Shown: in pieces, positions 5,274 to 15,798 of the stretch | How positions within the stretch are numbered: position 1 is the first letter of the stretch | Layout: each line of letters opens with the position of its first letter | Assembly (NCBI GenBank): GCA_018969905.1 | Contig: JAGWXK010000017.1 | Span: 1-35,274 of the forward strand | DNA from: Bdellovibrionales bacterium | Lineage (GTDB): Bacteria > Bdellovibrionota > UBA1018 > CAIMNF01 | DNA: 35,274 nucleotides | Direction of reading: 5' to 3' | The notes under the pieces: model-generated | Seen by the model: only the letters and a program-made list of their open reading frames with translations | Told to the model about the DNA's origin: nothing | Database searches by the model: none | Position numbers and translations under genes: made by a program

Positions 5274-5311
5274 GGGGTGGCTTGAAATAATTCCCGAGCT
5301 GGTGTCCTTGC

Positions 5312-5479
5312 GTGGGCATGGGAATAGATCGTTGGGCTCCGATCTGTTTGTTTGAACTGGGATTTTGCCGACTCTTGCGAGTCAGGACTGACGAAAGCAA
5401 GGCCGCAGGATGCGGCTCGGAGGTAAAATCCCAGTTCAAACAAACAGATCGGAACCCGATGACTTGGACCTGTGCCCAC
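5312..5479. repeat. Long foldback element A (29-bp perfect arms around a conserved core)
   Basis: A perfect 29-bp inverted repeat (5338-5366 with 5425-5453) flanks a 58-nt loop. Weaker complementarity extends outward to GTGGGCA (5312-5318) and TGCCCAC (5473-5479). The loop contains small hairpins (GACTC-ttgc-GAGTC; GCCGCA-gga-TGCGGC). Read on the minus strand, the loop carries two blocks shared almost exactly with element B at 9827-10103: a 34-nt block (5390-5423, one difference) and the 15-nt CTCGCAAGAGTCGGC (5367-5381). The arms are not shared with element B. It lies between the grpE promoter and the DUF4143 pseudogene. Short reading frames across it are not credible genes. Confidence 0.85.
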
Positions 5480-5490
5480 TAAAAGATGCC
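5474..5490 (-). repeat. Stop-proximal 17-nt motif, copy 1
   Basis: Reads GGCATCTTTTAGTGGGC on the minus strand, 11 nt after the stop of the pseudogene ending at 5502. It overlaps the outer right end of foldback element A. Related copies occur at 6387-6403 and 8302-8318. Confidence 0.5.
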
Positions 5491-5501
5491 AGTTAGTAAA
5501 C

Positions 5502-6305
5502 TTAAAGCAATTTGCCGACATTCACTCTTCGGATCTGAGGGGTCAGCAGTTGATCCATTCCTTTTTCTCGATCGGCCAGAATGACCTTTCCCCGCGGATG
5601 GGCCTTCAAAAAAGCGCGAGCACCGAAAAGGGCGGTTTCCAATCCATCCTCGACGGGAATCACCGCGAGAACGTTGGTGCCGGATTGAAAACAAAGAGGA
5701 GCCCTCGCCCCGGACTTCGTTCGAAAGCAAAACAACTTGTGCTTCATGGCGGAGCGATAGTGAAACTGAACCCTCAAATGATGGTAGAGAAACCCCGTAA
5801 AGAGGCGAGGATGTTCAGGCGGGAGATCCAACAGATGCCTCAGTTCACCGATGTCCTCAAAATGGACAACTGGACCCTTGAAATCTCCTGCAGAGGGGAT
5901 CAATCGAATCAAAAATAACGCTTCCATGAAGGGGATCAGTTTGCGCAAAGTGGGTTGTGAAACCCGGGTCTTTCGTTGAATTTCCGCCAGATTCAGTTCT
6001 TCACCTGATTGCTGCGCGAGGACCTCCAGAACTTTTCGTAGTGTTGCATAGGGCAATGAGGTTTGAAGGCGCCAGTTGGCACTCGTCGATCACCAAAGGC
6101 TCGGCGGCATTTTCGCTTAGAAGTCGCAAAGAATCACTTTGTGCAAGGGGCAGGCTCTGGGGAGCATCGAGTGTGATGTATTTTCCGGCAAATTCCGGCG
6201 CGTGGTCTTTCCGACCTGTCGATACCGCAAGATTCCCGTTACCGGTGAATAAGCGAGTGTTTTGCGGATCCATTCTGCGAGATGACGTTTCCTTGCGGAA
6301 GGCAT
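5502..6305 (-). pseudogene. Degenerate AAA/DUF4143-family ATPase
   Basis: Three pieces of one ATPase family lie in order but not in one frame. From 6305 (MPSARKRHLAEWIRKTL) a frame carries a Walker A, RQVGKTT. After a frameshift near 6205, the next frame carries the family's YITLDAP segment and the Walker B-like VIDECQLAP. After a second shift near 6055 the reading returns to the first frame with a winged-helix segment (LAEIQRKTRVSQPTLRKLI) and a worn DUF4143-like C-terminus to the stop at 5502. About 100 residues normally found between the Walker B region and the winged helix are absent, so there is an internal deletion as well. Intact relatives are stand-alone, often mobile ATPases of unknown role. 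A product is unlikely. Confidence 0.75.
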
Positions 6306-6386
6306 GCTTTTTCAGAATAGGGGGTTTCACTAAAAGTGAAAGGGATCATTTCAGGTTTTTCCTCAAAAACCCAGTGAAGGCGCCAT

Positions 6387-6403
6387 GCCCACTCAAAGAT
6401 ACC
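6387..6403 (-). repeat. Stop-proximal 17-nt motif, copy 2
   Basis: Reads GGTATCTTTGAGTGGGC on the minus strand, 12 nt after the stop (6416) of the small secreted-protein gene. About 15 nt further downstream is a 7-bp AT-rich hairpin, GGTTTTT-gagg-AAAAACC on the minus strand (6354-6371), which could help end the transcript. Confidence 0.5.
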
Positions 6404-6415
6404 GGTTCAAGAATC

Positions 6416-6814
6416 CTACCAGACCAAAGAGCCGTGTCTGCTCTCAAAGGCGACAAAACGATAAGACGCCTCTTTTTTATCCTCTTCCCATTCCATGCCG
6501 GTTACGCAAATTTCTTTGGTGTTTTTCATTAAGCTTTGAATACGACCCAGGTGTTCCCTGCAAGTTTCTTTTGAGATCATTCGTCCGTAGGAGTACGAGC
6601 AAGATCGGCCAACTCCATCCACACCAACGATATTCAATTCGAGCTCCGAAGAATCTCCGTCACACCAAACTTTTACCTTCGAAGTGTCGAAACACCGAGT
6701 GACATGCGGAATCTGAGAGTATTTCCAGCTTCTAGGGTAGGCGTAGGTGGTTGATCCCTGTGTTTGTAAAAAGAGCAGGCCCACGATAAGCCATGAAATC
6801 CGATTTAAGGTCAA
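6416..6814 (-). CDS. Small secreted Cys-containing protein, unknown function
   Basis: 132 residues; no family recognised. Residues 1-26 form a signal peptide (hydrophobic WLIVGLLFL, then a small polar stretch ending near TTYA). The mature part is short with five cysteines (RCFD, WCDG, SCSY, TCRE, ICVT), so periplasmic or extracellular with disulfides is likely. The start is TTG at 6814, whose TTGA overlaps the TGA stop of the HepT-transglycosylase gene, indicating translational coupling; no better start with a Shine-Dalgarno was seen. It is third in the mntA-hepT operon and may be an accessory of the transglycosylase part rather than of the toxin. It could also be a passenger gene. Confidence 0.65.
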   Translation of the reverse strand: MTLNRISWLIVGLLFLQTQGSTTYAYPRSWKYSQIPHVTRCFDTSKVKVWCDGDSSELELNIVGVDGVGRSCSYSYGRMISKETCREHLGRIQSLMKNTKEICVTGMEWEEDKKEASYRFVAFESRHGSLVW

Positions 6815-7860
6815 TTTGGCTTCCCTCCAAGTTGGGTGTAAAGAAGGACCAGTTTCTTCATGCCCGCTTGATTAGGCCAAGCTTTTTTTCCCAAATAGGA
6901 TTTGTATGCACCGATCGCTTCAATCCAGGATGCTGGTCTACCGAGTTTACGACTCGCCATCTGCTTTTTGTGGAACAACCAACGAATCGAAGCGCAAATG
7001 CTATGACTTGATGAGTTCAGATCCTTTGCAGAGAGCGTGAGAAAGTGATCTTTCAGCTCCCCCTTTTCATTTGCGAGAATTTTTCGGGTTTGGTCTGTAA
7101 TCTGCATCAATCCCCTTGCAAAATTTCCTTTGCCGATTCTTACGGGTTTTACTCTGGGGTTAAAATCCGACTCTGATCCCATCAGCGCTTTTATGAGGTT
7201 CGGATCAAGATTTTCGGAGGCACCTGCCAGGACCTCGTTCCAGTATTTTGTCCAGAATAAAATTTGTTGATCATACGCATTTGATCCAGGGAACTGTGGA
7301 AGAGCTTTTAGCGATGTTCCGTTAATCTCCTGCAAAAAGCGATCGAGCATCGCATCCATTTCCTGCGGATAAAGTTGGTCTTTTCCTGATGGATTCTTTC
7401 TGCAGTGCTCCCTTACATCCGTTATGCCTCCCGGGTTTTTAGGTGATGGAGGTACGACGCGAGGGTGTTTTACAACGTGATAATAGCCATGAGGGCATTG
7501 CCGCCAAGGATGAATGGGCTGGGCAATGAGCAGGGCTGATTTTTCAAGAGTGGTGGAAAGCTTGGTCAGTTCATGCTTCGCCACCTGCCAAACGATCTCG
7601 TAGTCAACATCAAAGTATCCATGAATCAGCCGGTTGCGCATACCTATCATTTGATTCCATGGGATTTCGGAAAATTTGGTTCTGGTTTGTTCAGAAACTT
7701 GCCGAGCCGCCTCACCAATCACTTCAAGAGAGCGGACTACTGCTGCCTGATGGAGGCTGCTTTTCATGAAAGATTTTTGATTCTTACCCTTTATATACTC
7801 TTCGATTTTCGAAATTTGATCGAGAATTTCCCGTAGGTAAACATCATCCTGTTTTTTCAT
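6811..7860 (-). CDS. HepT-like HEPN toxin fused to a lytic transglycosylase (SLT) domain
   Basis: One uninterrupted 349-residue frame joins two families. Residues 1-114 are HepT (DUF86, HEPN RNase toxin) with the RX4HXY motif at R75-H80-Y82 (RNRLIHGY). Residues about 115-175 form a linker rich in Pro, His and Cys (CPHGYYHVV, VREHCRKNPSGK). Residues about 205-335 are an SLT/goose-lysozyme-like domain: catalytic Glu230 in GSESDFNP, then ARGLMQIT (248-255) and a C-terminal IGAYKSYLG. There is no signal peptide ahead of the transglycosylase, so as encoded it would stay cytoplasmic. The start overlaps the end of mntA by 17 nt, as in genuine hepT-mntA pairs. The fusion may be functional (a toxin with wall-cutting activity) or the scar of a deletion joining hepT to a secreted transglycosylase gene. 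Confidence 0.85.
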   Translation of the reverse strand: MKKQDDVYLREILDQISKIEEYIKGKNQKSFMKSSLHQAAVVRSLEVIGEAARQVSEQTRTKFSEIPWNQMIGMRNRLIHGYFDVDYEIVWQVAKHELTKLSTTLEKSALLIAQPIHPWRQCPHGYYHVVKHPRVVPPSPKNPGGITDVREHCRKNPSGKDQLYPQEMDAMLDRFLQEINGTSLKALPQFPGSNAYDQQILFWTKYWNEVLAGASENLDPNLIKALMGSESDFNPRVKPVRIGKGNFARGLMQITDQTRKILANEKGELKDHFLTLSAKDLNSSSHSICASIRWLFHKKQMASRKLGRPASWIEAIGAYKSYLGKKAWPNQAGMKKLVLLYTQLGGKPN

Positions 7861-8152
7861 AAATCACCTTTACGTCTTTTTCGATGTACCGTTTCAGAGA
7901 GGGAGCAATTGACTCCTCAGTAATCAAATCAACGCGGGTACCGATCAATTTTGAAATTGACTCTGCAAGAGAGAACCAGTTCAAACCAACCTTCTTTTTT
8001 GCCCCGGGTTCGAAAAGAATCAAAACATCAATGTCTCCTGGATTTGGCTCCCCGCGCGCGAAAGACCCGAAAATCGAAATTCTACGAACTCCGAGGGGTT
8101 TAAGTGCATCAATGAGGACTTTCAGTTTGGGATCAAGAACTTGAGGGGCCAC
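7844..8152 (-). CDS. mntA: MntA-like minimal nucleotidyltransferase antitoxin
   Basis: 102 residues, the usual size for a MNT-domain antitoxin. The nucleotidyltransferase motif is GSFARGEPNPGDID (residues 29-42): GS, nine residues, then D40-x-D42, with a further acidic residue in RVDLI at the expected third position. In the characterised hepT/mntA system, MntA adds AMP to the tyrosine of the HepT RX4HXY motif and silences the RNase. Here it overlaps the hepT-like gene by 17 nt. The start is GTG at 8152; there is no Shine-Dalgarno, but a good promoter ends 6 nt upstream, suggesting a leaderless message. The active-site residues needed for AMPylation look intact. Confidence 0.9.
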   Translation of the reverse strand: MAPQVLDPKLKVLIDALKPLGVRRISIFGSFARGEPNPGDIDVLILFEPGAKKKVGLNWFSLAESISKLIGTRVDLITEESIAPSLKRYIEKDVKVIYEKTG

Positions 8153-8158
8153 TCTTCA

Positions 8159-8187
8159 CTTATATGATCTCTTTATCGGTTGTGCAA
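8159..8187 (-). promoter_or_regulatory. mntA-hepT promoter
   Basis: On the minus strand, TTGCAC (8187-8182), a 17-bp spacer and TATAAG (8164-8159). The -10 ends 6 nt before the GTG start, placing the transcription start at or next to the start codon. Confidence 0.6.
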
Positions 8188-8301
8188 TCCGCTGCTGTTT
8201 TTTTGTTTTACGCCTGGCGTTTTGTTTTGCAGGGAATCATGAGACTGAGGTGATTTTCTATGCGGCTGGACCGGGCTGTGAGGCCGAGGCTCGATCCCGA
8301 G

Positions 8302-8318
8302 GCCCACTCAAAGATTCC
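8302..8318 (-). repeat. Stop-proximal 17-nt motif, copy 3
   Basis: Reads GGAATCTTTGAGTGGGC on the minus strand, 16 nt after the stop (8335) of the DEAD-box helicase gene. It differs from copy 2 at one position and from copy 1 at two. Confidence 0.5.
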
Positions 8319-8334
8319 AGGTTTGTCAGAATCC

Positions 8335-9826: not shown

Positions 9827-10103
9827 CAAATTGCCATCTGGTCTCTTTGGGTGGGTTGGGTGGTTCAGTCTCGGGGATAATGATCCCCTTGGATTCATGG
9901 AGCTTTGCCCTCCGAGCCGCGTCCTGCGGCCTTGCTTTCGTCCGGTCGCCTACGCATCCTGCTCCGGCGCGCTACGCGACCCACACCCGGGCTCATGCCC
10001 GAGTGTAACTCGCAAGAGTCGGCCAAAACTCCATGAATCCAAAGGGTTTACTTCCACGAGTTCTAATCCCCTGCCCACCCAAGGGGAACAGATTGCCATT
10101 TGA
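9827..10103. repeat. Long foldback element B (277 bp) with conserved core
   Basis: Fills most of the 378-bp gap between hemW and the helicase. Inner arms are a perfect 14-bp inverted repeat (9889-9902 with 10029-10042). Outer complementarity continues in blocks (GGGGAT/ATCCCC, GGGTGGG/CCCACCC) to CAAATTGCCATCTG (9827-9840) against the tail ending at 10103, 12 of 14 matching. Between the arms is the core shared with element A: a 34-nt block (9909-9942) and CTCGCAAGAGTCGGC (10009-10023), here separated by an additional stretch of roughly 65 nt with its own hairpins. Predicted short proteins across the core are low-complexity translations and are not called. Confidence 0.85.
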
Positions 10104-11400: not shown

Positions 11401-11462
11401 TTTAGCGGTACCCTTCAGAAAAGGATTTCTGGAGCCGAAAAGACAATTTGAGGAGCTTACTC

Positions 11463-13490
11463 ATGTCCAAAAATTTTTTTAGCAAGATGCTGGTGAACGT
11501 TCTCACGATATCCCTTGTGTTTCAAAACACCGGCTTCATCAGGGAATCAAAAGCGGGCAATCTTCCTTCCTGTTACATGGAAGGCAATGGTGGAAGGGTT
11601 GCAAACGTAGGATTAAGTGTCGGAGATCTTTGTTCCGGAGATGGCAAGGTGCTTAAGCTGGTTCGGCCCTGTAAGGGAAGCGACAACCGAAGGATCCTGG
11701 ATTTCAGTCGCTGTTTGAAGAAGGCGAGCAAGAGCGACTTGAATCGTCTTACGGGTCACTCGGATCCAAACTGGGTGGACGGGAGTTCAAACTCCGGAAA
11801 TGATGGCGTGAGTGCAAACGGGAACGGAAATGGAAACGGGACGGGCAATACAACTACCACCACGACAACCACACGCAATTGTGTGATCACACACACTTGC
11901 TCCACTGATACCTATACCTACACTCATTCTACAAGCACCACCGATCATTGGGAAATTCTGAAGTACGGTTGTCCTGACCTTGCAGCCTACGTTGAAGACA
12001 AGCGTGTGGATCTGAGTGATAAGAAGTCCAAGCTGAAGAAGGATGAAGAAGAGCTGAAGAAGTTGAAGGCAAAGCTCTCGGACTGTCACAAGGATTGTCG
12101 CAATTTCGCGGTGAAGGAATCCGCCTCGAAGTGTTACTTCACAAAAGTGAAGAGAGTGAACGATTACAAGAAAGTCGCGAGATATCTTACGCAAGATGAT
12201 TTCAAGGATCCGGAGCTTACTGGATTCCGTGACGATGGGCAGAAGGCTGGCAAGACTCTTGCCCAATCTAACTTCAAGGGCAGCGATGGCGAGATCTGCG
12301 AAAAGTTGTTGGAGGACGAGCTCTGTGCCGAGTTTCTGTTGGATGACAATCTGAACTCTTGTTTCGAGGATGAGGATTACATCGCTTGGAAAGCAAAGGC
12401 GAAGTCTGTTGCAGAATTAAAGGCACAGATTGCGGTTCTTGAGGGCGAAGTGGACAAGAATGAGTGTGTGATCGGTCGCACACGCTTGCCGAATCCCAAG
12501 CTTTACGAGGACAAGTCCATTGCATGCCTTGAAATGATGGTGTCCACCTGTGACGAGTATTTTGCTGACTTGGATGCGAACCATTCCGATGATTGCGTGG
12601 ACTGCAATCGAAGCGATTCTGCAAACACCAATACTGCCATCCTCAATCCGAATGCCTCTAACCTGTGCCTTTACGGCCCTTGCCCTCCAGGGGTAAGCAA
12701 GGCTGCACAAATCATCGGCGCCATCGGCTCGATCGGGGTTCCGCTCGGGCTCGGCGCGATGCAGATGGCCATGTATAACAATGGATTAAGCAAGTACAGC
12801 AATAGCTTGGCCGAATGTTACAAGGCTTATGATCTTCAGGTCAGGCAGGCTCAATATGTAGGTCTGCCGCCTCAGGGACCAAACTGCGGCATTGGCGGCT
12901 TTGGTATGGGCGGATTTATGGGCGGCCTTGGCGGTATGATGGGTGGTCTTGGCGGGCTCGGAATGGGCATGATGAACCCCATGATGATGGGCGGCATGGG
13001 CATGATGAACCCGATGATGGGCGGCCTTGGTCTTGGATTGAATGCGGGGCTTAGCCTTGGCATGAACCCGATAATGGGCGGCATGGGCATGATGAACCCC
13101 ATGATGATGGGCGGCATGGGCATGATTAACCCGATGATGGGCGGCATGGGCATGATGAACCCGATGATGGGCGGCATGGGCATGATGAACCCGATGATGA
13201 ACGTTCAGCAGCAGATGATGGAATCTCAAATGAGGATGCAGGAAATGGCCGCTATGCAAATGGCAGCGCAAACCGCGTATGGAATGGGCTACCCAAACAT
13301 GATGAGTGGAATGAGTATGCCATATTTCGGAATGGGGCAAAACCCCTTGATGTTCAGCCCGATGATGAACAACGGCCTGAATTTTAATGCGGGATTTAGC
13401 TTTGGTAGCCCATTTGGTAGCCCATTTGGGATGATGAGCCCAATGGGGGCTCAGTGTGGCTATATGTACGCCATCCCTTGTGCGTATTGA
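11463..13490 (+). CDS. Large secreted Cys-rich protein with Met/Gly repeat domain
   Basis: 675 residues from ATG 11463, chosen over an upstream TTG (11448) because GAGGAG sits 7 nt before it. No known family recognised. Order: signal peptide (1-32, ending near SKAG); Cys-containing region; an Asn/Gly then Thr-rich low-complexity stretch (about 120-145); a Lys/Glu-rich coiled coil (about 180-210); a region with many cysteines, several paired (DCHKDC, DCVDC, CLYGPC); one hydrophobic segment (about 415-435); and a C-terminal third dominated by Gly, Met, Asn and Pro with tandem GGMGMMNPMM units. Cysteine count and signal peptide suggest an oxidised extracytoplasmic location; the Met-rich part could be adhesive, metal-binding or membrane-interacting, all inference. 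It has its own promoter and a strong terminator. Confidence 0.85.
   Translation: MSKNFFSKMLVNVLTISLVFQNTGFIRESKAGNLPSCYMEGNGGRVANVGLSVGDLCSGDGKVLKLVRPCKGSDNRRILDFSRCLKKASKSDLNRLTGHSDPNWVDGSSNSGNDGVSANGNGNGNGTGNTTTTTTTTRNCVITHTCSTDTYTYTHSTSTTDHWEILKYGCPDLAAYVEDKRVDLSDKKSKLKKDEEELKKLKAKLSDCHKDCRNFAVKESASKCYFTKVKRVNDYKKVARYLTQDDFKDPELTGFRDDGQKAGKTLAQSNFKGSDGEICEKLLEDELCAEFLLDDNLNSCFEDEDYIAWKAKAKSVAELKAQIAVLEGEVDKNECVIGRTRLPNPKLYEDKSIACLEMMVSTCDEYFADLDANHSDDCVDCNRSDSANTNTAILNPNASNLCLYGPCPPGVSKAAQIIGAIGSIGVPLGLGAMQMAMYNNGLSKYSNSLAECYKAYDLQVRQAQYVGLPPQGPNCGIGGFGMGGFMGGLGGMMGGLGGLGMGMMNPMMMGGMGMMNPMMGGLGLGLNAGLSLGMNPIMGGMGMMNPMMMGGMGMINPMMGGMGMMNPMMGGMGMMNPMMNVQQQMMESQMRMQEMAAMQMAAQTAYGMGYPNMMSGMSMPYFGMGQNPLMFSPMMNNGLNFNAGFSFGSPFGSPFGMMSPMGAQCGYMYAIPCAY
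12950..13201 (+). repeat. In-frame Met/Gly tandem repeats (about 30 bp units)
   Basis: Near-identical 30-33 bp units encode GGMGMMNPMM, sometimes with an extra Met. Six copies are interrupted once by a GLGLGLNAGLSLG insert. The last four units are almost identical at DNA level, which suggests recent expansion and possible copy-number variation between strains. Confidence 0.85.
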
Positions 13491-13823: not shown

Positions 13824-15632
13824 ATGGCAAAACTAAACACAGAAGCTACTGCTCCCAAGCAGAAGAAAAACCTTCTTTCCAATTTGAAGTGGATCGAAGA
13901 ATTCAGCGATGTACAAGGCGACATCGTTGAAACCCGCGCCCATGGGGGCGATGAAGACTTCACGACTCTTTTTGAGAATCGTCAAAAAGACAGTGAAATC
14001 CAGGAAGGCGCAGTGATCGAAGGCGGCAAAGTTGTCGCAATCGGTCCTGAATACGTCACCGTTGATATCGGATTCAAATGCGAAGGCTTTGTACCGATTT
14101 ACGAATTCAAGGATGCTACCGGAATTGCAAAGGTTACGGTTGGCGACATCCTTTCTGTTTACGTAGAAAGACTCGAAATTGAACAAGGCATGATCCACCT
14201 CTCCAAGGACCGCGCGGACATCATCAAGGCCTGGGACGAAATCTCTGCTGCTTGCGAAGGCGATCAGCTCGTGGAGGGCATCGTGATTGCAAAAGTGAAG
14301 GGCGGTCTTGCCGTGGATATCGGCGTGAAGGCGTTCCTCCCCGGCTCCCAGCTCGACACCAAGGCGGTGAAGAACCTTGATAAGTACATCGGCAGCCGCA
14401 TGAAGTTCAAGATCCTGAAGTTCAACAAGAAGCGCGGAAACATCGTGCTTTCCCGCAAGGCAGTGGTTGCACAGGAGCGCGAGCTTCAACGTGCAGAGAC
14501 GCTCTCTCAAATGCAAGAGGGAATGGTCGTTGCCGGAACGGTCAAGAACATCACCGAGTACGGTGCTTTCATTGATCTTGGCGGTATGGACGGACTACTC
14601 CACATCACGGACATGTCTTGGGGACGCATCAAGCACCCAAGCGAGCTCTTCAATGTGGGCGATGAAGTGAAAGTAAAGATCCTGAAGTACGATCGCGAAA
14701 AAGAGCGAGTATCTCTCGGACTCAAGCAAGTATCTCCAAATCCATGGGAAGAAGCAGAATACAAATTCCCAGTCGGTAAGGTGGTGAAGGGCAAAGTGGT
14801 CAGTCTTAAGGACTACGGCGCATTCGTTGAACTTGACGACGGTGTTGAAGGCCTCATTCACGTGTCTGAGATGTCCTGGACTGAGCGCGTGAAAAACCCT
14901 GGCAAATTCGTTAAAGTGGGCGACGTAGTAGAGTGCAAAGTTCTCGAAGTCGACACCCGCAACAAGCGCATCAGCCTTGGAATGAAGCAGCTTCAAGAGA
15001 ATCCTTGGGATGCTCTGGAGCTCAAATTCCCAGTGGGCGCAATTGTGGACGAATGTGAAGTGAAGTCGATCACTGACTTCGGAATGTTTGTTGATGTAGG
15101 CATGGGAATCGATGGACTCATCCACGTTTCAGACCTTTCTTGGAACAAGAAAGTCACCAATCCTGCTGAAAAATACAAAAAAGGCGACAAGCTGAAAGCG
15201 GTTGTCCTTGGAATCGACAAGCAAGCTGAAAAATTCTCTTTAGGAGTAAAGCAGCTTGAGCGTGATCCTTGGGAAAACATCAAGAGTCGTTACCGCACCG
15301 GCCAGTCCGTGGAAGGCCTCGTGACCAAGATCACTGACTTCGGTGCATTCATGGAAATCGAAGAAGGTGTGGAAGGGTTGATCTACGTAAGCGAGCTTTC
15401 TGAGCAACGCGTAGAAAAGCCTGGTGACATCGTGAAGCTCGGTGAAAAAGTTCGCGCAGAGATTCTCTCGATCGAACCAAAAGACCGCCGCATCAGCCTC
15501 TCGATCAAGCAACTCGGACGTTCTGAAGAGCGTGCGAACTATGAAACCTATATGGGCGATCGCAACAAGAAGACCTCCATGGGTGACATCCTTGGCGAGA
15601 AGCTCAAGGGCGCTTTGAAAAAGGACGAATAA
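13824..15632 (+). CDS. rpsA: 30S ribosomal protein S1
   Basis: 602 residues from ATG 13824, preferred over an in-frame ATG at 13785 because of the Shine-Dalgarno just upstream and because MAKLN is a natural N-terminus. Six S1 (OB-fold) RNA-binding domains follow in order, each starting with a G-x-V-x-G pattern: about 57-125, 140-208, 225-295, 310-380, 397-468 and 484-554. Repeated signatures such as YGAFIDLGGMDGLLHITDMSW, YGAFVELDDGVEGLIHVSEMSW and FGAFMEIEEGVEGLIYVSELS identify it clearly. S1 unfolds mRNA and docks it on the 30S subunit. Its presence with six domains is relevant here because neighbouring genes appear to have leaderless mRNAs, which generally depend less on S1. The stop codon overlaps the first base pair of a 77-bp repeat. 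Confidence 0.97.
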   Translation: MAKLNTEATAPKQKKNLLSNLKWIEEFSDVQGDIVETRAHGGDEDFTTLFENRQKDSEIQEGAVIEGGKVVAIGPEYVTVDIGFKCEGFVPIYEFKDATGIAKVTVGDILSVYVERLEIEQGMIHLSKDRADIIKAWDEISAACEGDQLVEGIVIAKVKGGLAVDIGVKAFLPGSQLDTKAVKNLDKYIGSRMKFKILKFNKKRGNIVLSRKAVVAQERELQRAETLSQMQEGMVVAGTVKNITEYGAFIDLGGMDGLLHITDMSWGRIKHPSELFNVGDEVKVKILKYDREKERVSLGLKQVSPNPWEEAEYKFPVGKVVKGKVVSLKDYGAFVELDDGVEGLIHVSEMSWTERVKNPGKFVKVGDVVECKVLEVDTRNKRISLGMKQLQENPWDALELKFPVGAIVDECEVKSITDFGMFVDVGMGIDGLIHVSDLSWNKKVTNPAEKYKKGDKLKAVVLGIDKQAEKFSLGVKQLERDPWENIKSRYRTGQSVEGLVTKITDFGAFMEIEEGVEGLIYVSELSEQRVEKPGDIVKLGEKVRAEILSIEPKDRRISLSIKQLGRSEERANYETYMGDRNKKTSMGDILGEKLKGALKKDE

Positions 15633-15707
15633 CCCCAGGACCGGGGTGATTCGTGGGATCGCAGCGTGCCCCCGGGCGGGGGCCAATCGCACGTGAAGTG
15701 CGATTGA
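15631..15707 (+). repeat. REP-like 77-bp tandem unit, copy 1
   Basis: Starts inside the rpsA stop codon. It contains three potential hairpins: CCCC-aggacc-GGGG, CCCCC-gggc-GGGGG and CAATCGCAC-gtgaa-GTGCGATTG. Copy 2 at 15722-15798 is identical over all 77 bases; a 14-nt spacer separates them. Confidence 0.9.
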
Positions 15708-15721
15708 GCGAGAACCCAACA

Positions 15722-15798
15722 AACCCCAGGACCGGGGTGATTCGTGGGATCGCAGCGTGCCCCCGGGCGGGGGCCAATCGCACGTGAAGTGCGATTGA
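15722..15798 (+). repeat. REP-like 77-bp tandem unit, copy 2
   Basis: Exact copy of 15631-15707, ending about 10 nt before the rpsA terminator. Sequence identity without any drift implies recent duplication or ongoing gene conversion. Confidence 0.9.

Follow-up and report, generated by a model that had tools for sequence, protein, structure and literature searches.

Bacterial MITEs and small palindromic repeats such as Correia/NEMIS, ERIC, RUP, RPE and YPAL (reviewed in PMC2229807) resemble the element described here in being dispersed non-coding sequences of ~200 bp that form long hairpins, many with terminal inverted repeats. They differ in that the stem of the present element varies from copy to copy with its pairing kept, the structured apex is the most conserved part, and no target duplication was found around its 198-bp copies. 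REP/BIME (RAYT) repeats and integron attC sites are likewise dispersed hairpins; in attC, structure matters more than stem sequence and the ends are conserved while the loop varies, the reverse of the conserved core seen here. Template switching between inverted repeats yields arm homogenisation and spacer inversion in corrected quasi-palindromes (PMC8604942), and both products are seen in our element. Those quasi-palindromes are short chance inverted repeats in yeast genes, whereas ours is a multi-copy element with a conserved spacer of ~57 nt.

The window, a stretch of 35,274 nt from a Bdellovibrionales bacterium, carries two copies of this element, A and B. The extent originally assigned to A (5312–5479) was too short; the element is 198 bp long and is organised as follows.

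5297–5494, + strand: element A, the whole 198-bp hairpin element; its ends match the terminal repeat of an insertion sequence (IS), and its length is common to at least 15 other copies
5297–5321, + strand: left terminal inverted repeat (AGCTGGTGTCCTTGCGTGGGCATGG), 6/25 mismatches to the IS terminus
5338–5366, + strand: inner arm, 29 perfect pairs with 5425–5453
5367–5424, + strand: conserved core, three-way junction P1/P2/P2b/P3, with covariation over 12 and 100 copies
5425–5453, + strand: partner arm, pairing with 5338–5366
5470–5494, − strand: right terminal inverted repeat, 5/25 mismatches to the IS terminus
about 9836–10093, − strand: element B, 258 bp, same family as A, with a ~58-nt insertion in the P2 loop and weaker terminal repeats

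The original prediction had described perfect 29-bp arms in A that differ from those of B around a common loop core. Both points hold: the arms are perfect at 5338–5366 and 5425–5453, and a 34-nt core block in A and B has 0 mismatches to a pattern leaving one base free. The arms of A are part of a longer imperfect hairpin. Folding of 5290–5500 gave −125.9 kcal/mol, compared with −63.6 ± 4.3 in shuffles (z −14.5; 0/200 shuffles as good), and B folded at −115.4 kcal/mol (z −10). The ends of A differ from the IS terminus at 11 of 50 positions, where the best of 2000 shuffles had 17 mismatches (0/2000 as good); for B the figures are 15/50 and 18. From the apex outward, the general plan is a conserved apex of ~57 nt, a variable, self-complementary inner arm of ~28 bp, a poorly paired bubble of ~20 nt and an outer arm.

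A genome-wide search with the core, followed by folding of the copies as the original prediction had proposed, recovered 14 copies in the genome of A by pattern and 21–22 with covariance model R1. Across the 40 genomes searched, which are MAGs and in several cases fragmented, G002 holds 40–43 copies, G009 18 and G039 28–31; several others have one or two and most have none. Such palindromes number 20–40 in some genomes, and each brings its own orientation marker. With a broader model, R2, the core was detected in 14/55 genomes of the order, and a stricter R2 scan of 369 genomes of the phylum gave just two core-bearing genomes outside it. The core-bearing records that carry names are Bdellovibrionales or Oligoflexia MAGs, and their isolate names suggest that most come from lakes and ponds. 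An alphaproteobacterial MAG and a viral contig each gave an outlying core match; neither is surrounded by long arms, and both were judged to be chance.

Nearly every copy folds into a long hairpin and about five are relics without arms, contrary to the possibility, raised at the outset, that most copies would be armless. The companion possibility, that copies would share the same arms, is borne out only within subfamilies, whose arms are recognisably related and co-vary; the arms of other copies are unrelated. We also noted a sister core family, CGACTTTTTGAGCGAGCC..GGATGGCGA..AGCGAAAA, which model R1 largely misses (G002 L036 flank and L088; G003 L042). In the G039 copies (L038–L115), the inner arms are separated from the outer ones by a bubble that is a second conserved module, GACGTCCTCGCC facing GGCTGCGGAATGTC; other families also have a ~20-nt bubble at this position.

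The core is a covarying three-way junction. Its ~57 nt comprise P1 (CCGA/UCGG), P2 (CUYGC/GCRAG), the hairpins P2b and P3, and then GGAG. In an alignment of 12 copies, pairing holds in 96.4% of 276 pair cells, and 30 cells have changed on both sides, where shuffles gave 8.7. Across 100 copies, C-G (51) swaps with U-A (41) in P2, while P2b and P3 vary with pairing kept; the hairpin loops are mostly A-N-G-A-N. A scan of the window and of A with the Rfam 15 covariance models gave no match for A or its core, only a tRNA reaching threshold, and the consensus does not fit hammerhead or other small ribozymes (compared by eye). Most likely, the core acts as a folded single strand of DNA or RNA.

This covariation fits the proposal, unlikely on balance, that the element is a structured RNA, either an sRNA or an untranslated-region element, whose arms are kept paired by ordinary compensatory evolution because the RNA stem is selected. 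G.U mismatches outnumber A.C within the core (62 to 28) and among the 15 pairs closest to it (52 to 12), although the R1 alignment fixes nine pairs beside the core by model, so that counts there lean towards pairing. GGA in hairpin loops is a trait of CsrA/RsmE targets and some of the core loops have it. A Csr/Rsm-type sRNA was rejected, because GGA is not invariant in the loops: most contain it, but many copies in G039, G010 and G026 have CGA, TGA or AGA.

If selection maintained an RNA stem, G.U should be tolerated much better than A.C, and the ratio of the two mismatches therefore separates such selection from arm-to-arm copying of DNA. In the inner arms there is no wobble preference: 23 G.U and 25 A.C mismatches were counted, with ~94–95% of pairs Watson-Crick, over pairs 10–23 from the core in 59 copies from G000, G002 and G009 and pairs 10–30 in 25 G039 copies, restricted to copies in which 78% or more of the arm is paired (a threshold set after earlier counts had been seen). 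The RNA stem suggested by our early wobble count of the first 15 pairs was accordingly dropped, as the G.U excess is gone further out. In sixteen 198-bp copies, 201/208 pairs at positions 51–63 from the ends are Watson-Crick, outside which lie a poorly paired zone (~26–47) and the terminal repeat (1–25). Comparison of nearest-neighbour copies gave 61 compensated changes (36 transversion-type, 25 transition-type) and 63 one-sided changes, with G.U and A.C at 20 each; all mismatch and compensation counts in this analysis, those for the core and for same-locus pairs included, take copies as independent, ignoring shared ancestry. Compensated transversions as common as transitions also speak against selection for an RNA stem, which is disfavoured for the inner arms and possible for the core and the few adjoining pairs. 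Paired "compensatory" changes, commonly taken to prove RNA structure, can stem from arm-to-arm DNA copying, and the original suggestion that one arm is copied from the other agrees with both the mismatch ratio and the compensated transversions.

The same suggestion gains from comparisons of single loci between genomes. BLAST among the fetched loci identified about 18 cases in which hairpins of two genomes have flanks that match, the orthology resting on flank matches of ~0.3–1.5 kb that are one-sided in a few cases. In the pair L025/L090, the core has been inverted in place: relative to it, the two flanks have changed sides, and so have the two arms. For A and its orthologue L045 in G009, flank and arm are likewise swapped relative to the core on the side of grpE; the other side is not alignable, G000 having ~2.8 kb extra there. 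In L051/L054 the whole element is inverted. Such flips of core orientation at fixed loci count against a structured RNA. At three loci (L068/L092, L040/L041 and L048/L086) core and pairing are retained despite very different arms, a pattern that may instead reflect replacement by a new insertion. Same-locus pairs show a mild G.U excess, 28 to 17. Since changes between close same-locus pairs are mostly one-sided, arm homogenisation is not continuous and must either come in episodes or accompany transposition.

Some arms carry sequence from neighbouring genes. At G039_L109, the opposite arm contains an inverted copy of the final ~27 nt of an M23-peptidase gene; the Pfam profile hit by this gene (5.8e-20) is matched through to the profile's own end, five residues before the stop. 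At G034_L234, 18 nt of the 3′ half of the adjacent tRNA-Arg gene are found inverted in the opposite arm, and G010_L048 and G002_L086 offer a weaker case, with a repeat of a shorter piece from a tRNA-Ser 3′ end. Because the peptidase and tRNA genes are native, copying ran from the chromosome to the opposite arm, as arm-to-arm copying would have it and as an RNA stem shaped by selection would not. These cases also bear on a further reading, possible though we give it much less weight than our own, in which the core is itself a mobile unit that builds its own locus-specific stem and needs no fixed ends. The core would arrive as a fold-back loop, and host polymerase would copy the adjacent gene end or tRNA inverted, giving each new copy perfect arms unrelated to the others; IS ends would have been acquired later in one lineage. 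If true, this would be spreading without fixed ends.

The ends of A lead to a partner element. Alignment of recent G002 subfamilies gave unrelated flanks and sharp ends, the left being AACTGGCCYCTTTGARTGGGCATGG and the right its complement. Terminal inverted repeats of ~25 bp occur on about 30 copies in G000, G002 and G009, A included, and many of these copies are exactly 198 bp. The same motif without the core forms inverted pairs ~990 bp apart, bounding insertion sequences of ~1.03 kb that encode a 303-aa protein. All 22 aligned relatives of this protein match the IS1 model (NCBIfam; best E 1.2e-13), although the two members with scores shown reach 24.7–25.2 bits, far below the curated cut-off of 100. 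Its predicted fold is that of a DDE transposase (AlphaFold pLDDT 78.7; Foldseek match to the ISCth4 transposase, E 1.4e-5); the partner transposase is classed as DDE, distantly IS1-like. A target-site duplication is expected from IS1-type elements; one IS copy (L218) has a 9-bp duplication, as in the IS1 family, while most IS copies show none, and in this, as in its single ORF and low score, the partner differs from that family. No publication among those searched joins the IS1 family, MITEs and Bdellovibrio, a plasmid search with the transposase found none, and a sequence search of solved structures returned nothing relevant to it. A Y1/RAYT transposase was rejected as the driver: G000, G002 and G009 have a single weak hit apiece, and counts do not track copy number, being higher in genomes without the core.

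The original prediction had set the element apart from a MITE, which would show conserved ends. For A this contrast is wrong, as about 30 copies in the genus, A among them, share conserved ~25-bp ends with an autonomous IS1-like element of the same genome; conserved ends, variable stem and conserved apex therefore coexist. From the shared ends and the dispersion of the copies, the IS1-like DDE transposase probably moves the 198-bp copies in the manner of a MITE. The absence of any direct repeat adjoining these copies counts against this. The family is nonetheless not simply the MITE of this element, because no partner transposase was found in the core-bearing genomes G003, G004 and G005, and outer arms in the G039 hairpins are specific to each copy, with no definable shared terminus. 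It is quite improbable that the hairpins are plain internal deletion derivatives of the IS1-like element, with arms that are long terminal repeats diverging by subfamily and a complementarity inherited from a perfect ancestor. Ends in common with the IS, subfamilies with related arms and core-less copies with the same terminal repeats all favour such an origin. Yet the 61 compensated changes between related copies go beyond inheritance alone, other families have core and arms without these ends, and the core was not seen in the IS copies that were read through; in many MITEs the interior is unrelated to the autonomous element. One copy in G002, L187 (G002:C2:494075-494124), is a minimal derivative of ~70 bp, almost just two terminal repeats.

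We favour, with a probability of about 0.6, a reading in which A is one copy of a dispersed Bdellovibrionales hairpin whose 198-bp copies are moved by the IS and whose arms are kept complementary by template switching. In many copies of the window's genus, the outer arms are the terminal inverted repeats of the resident ~1.03-kb IS1-like element. The palindrome would form hairpins during replication and the polymerase would switch template between the arms, so that an arm is rewritten from its partner or from adjoining chromosomal DNA; at times the core would be inverted as well. Inner arms, and in other families outer arms as well, would be homogenised in this way. We infer template switching as the agent because arm homogenisation and spacer inversion are its reported products, and bacterial data cited in PMC8604942 indicate that it favours transversions; cruciform mismatch repair or inter-arm recombination could give similar products. 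A stem that is free in sequence and fixed in pairing is a natural assay of bacterial template switching and palindrome correction.

Gene context differs between lineages. Of 23 G039 copies, 15 are flanked by convergent genes and none by divergent ones, as would suit bidirectional terminators or boundaries at gene 3′ ends, selected for stem stability whatever the sequence. We consider this very improbable: the window's genus shows no such bias (19/66 copies between convergent genes), and a terminator could do without a conserved, structured apex and without conserved ends. The strand of the core is unbiased relative to flanking genes (14 same-strand, 23 opposite), a further point against a structured RNA. 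Cargo common to clustered copies was not evident from the ORF lists, the Pfam scan covering the window genes. The low-copy hairpins L040, L041, L048, L086 and L234 directly adjoin tRNA genes (Pro, Ser, Arg).

Two isolated terminal repeats lie between A and B in the window.

6383–6407, − strand: isolated terminal repeat (CCATGCCCACTCAAAGATACCGGTT), relic of another copy
8298–8320, − strand: isolated, decayed terminal repeat

By eye, the flank of the decayed repeat matches a flank of the G009 orthologue L045, so this repeat probably once formed the distal end of the element at the locus of A. The intervening ~2.8 kb (5495–8297), between A and a DEAD-box helicase gene, is missing from the G009 orthologue, where the helicase directly follows the hairpin; it contains a DUF4143 fragment, an ORF with HepT-like and SLT domains, and other ORFs. 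The ~58-nt P2-loop insertion of B (within 9900–10030) is also present in G002 copies (L087, L088) and contains further small hairpins with loops of AGGA/ATGA type. Elsewhere in the window, 30–33-nt repeats at 12959–13210 give a glycine/methionine-rich stretch in ORF 11448–13490, which has no Pfam hit, and two identical 77-nt direct repeats lie 91 nt apart at 15631–15798.
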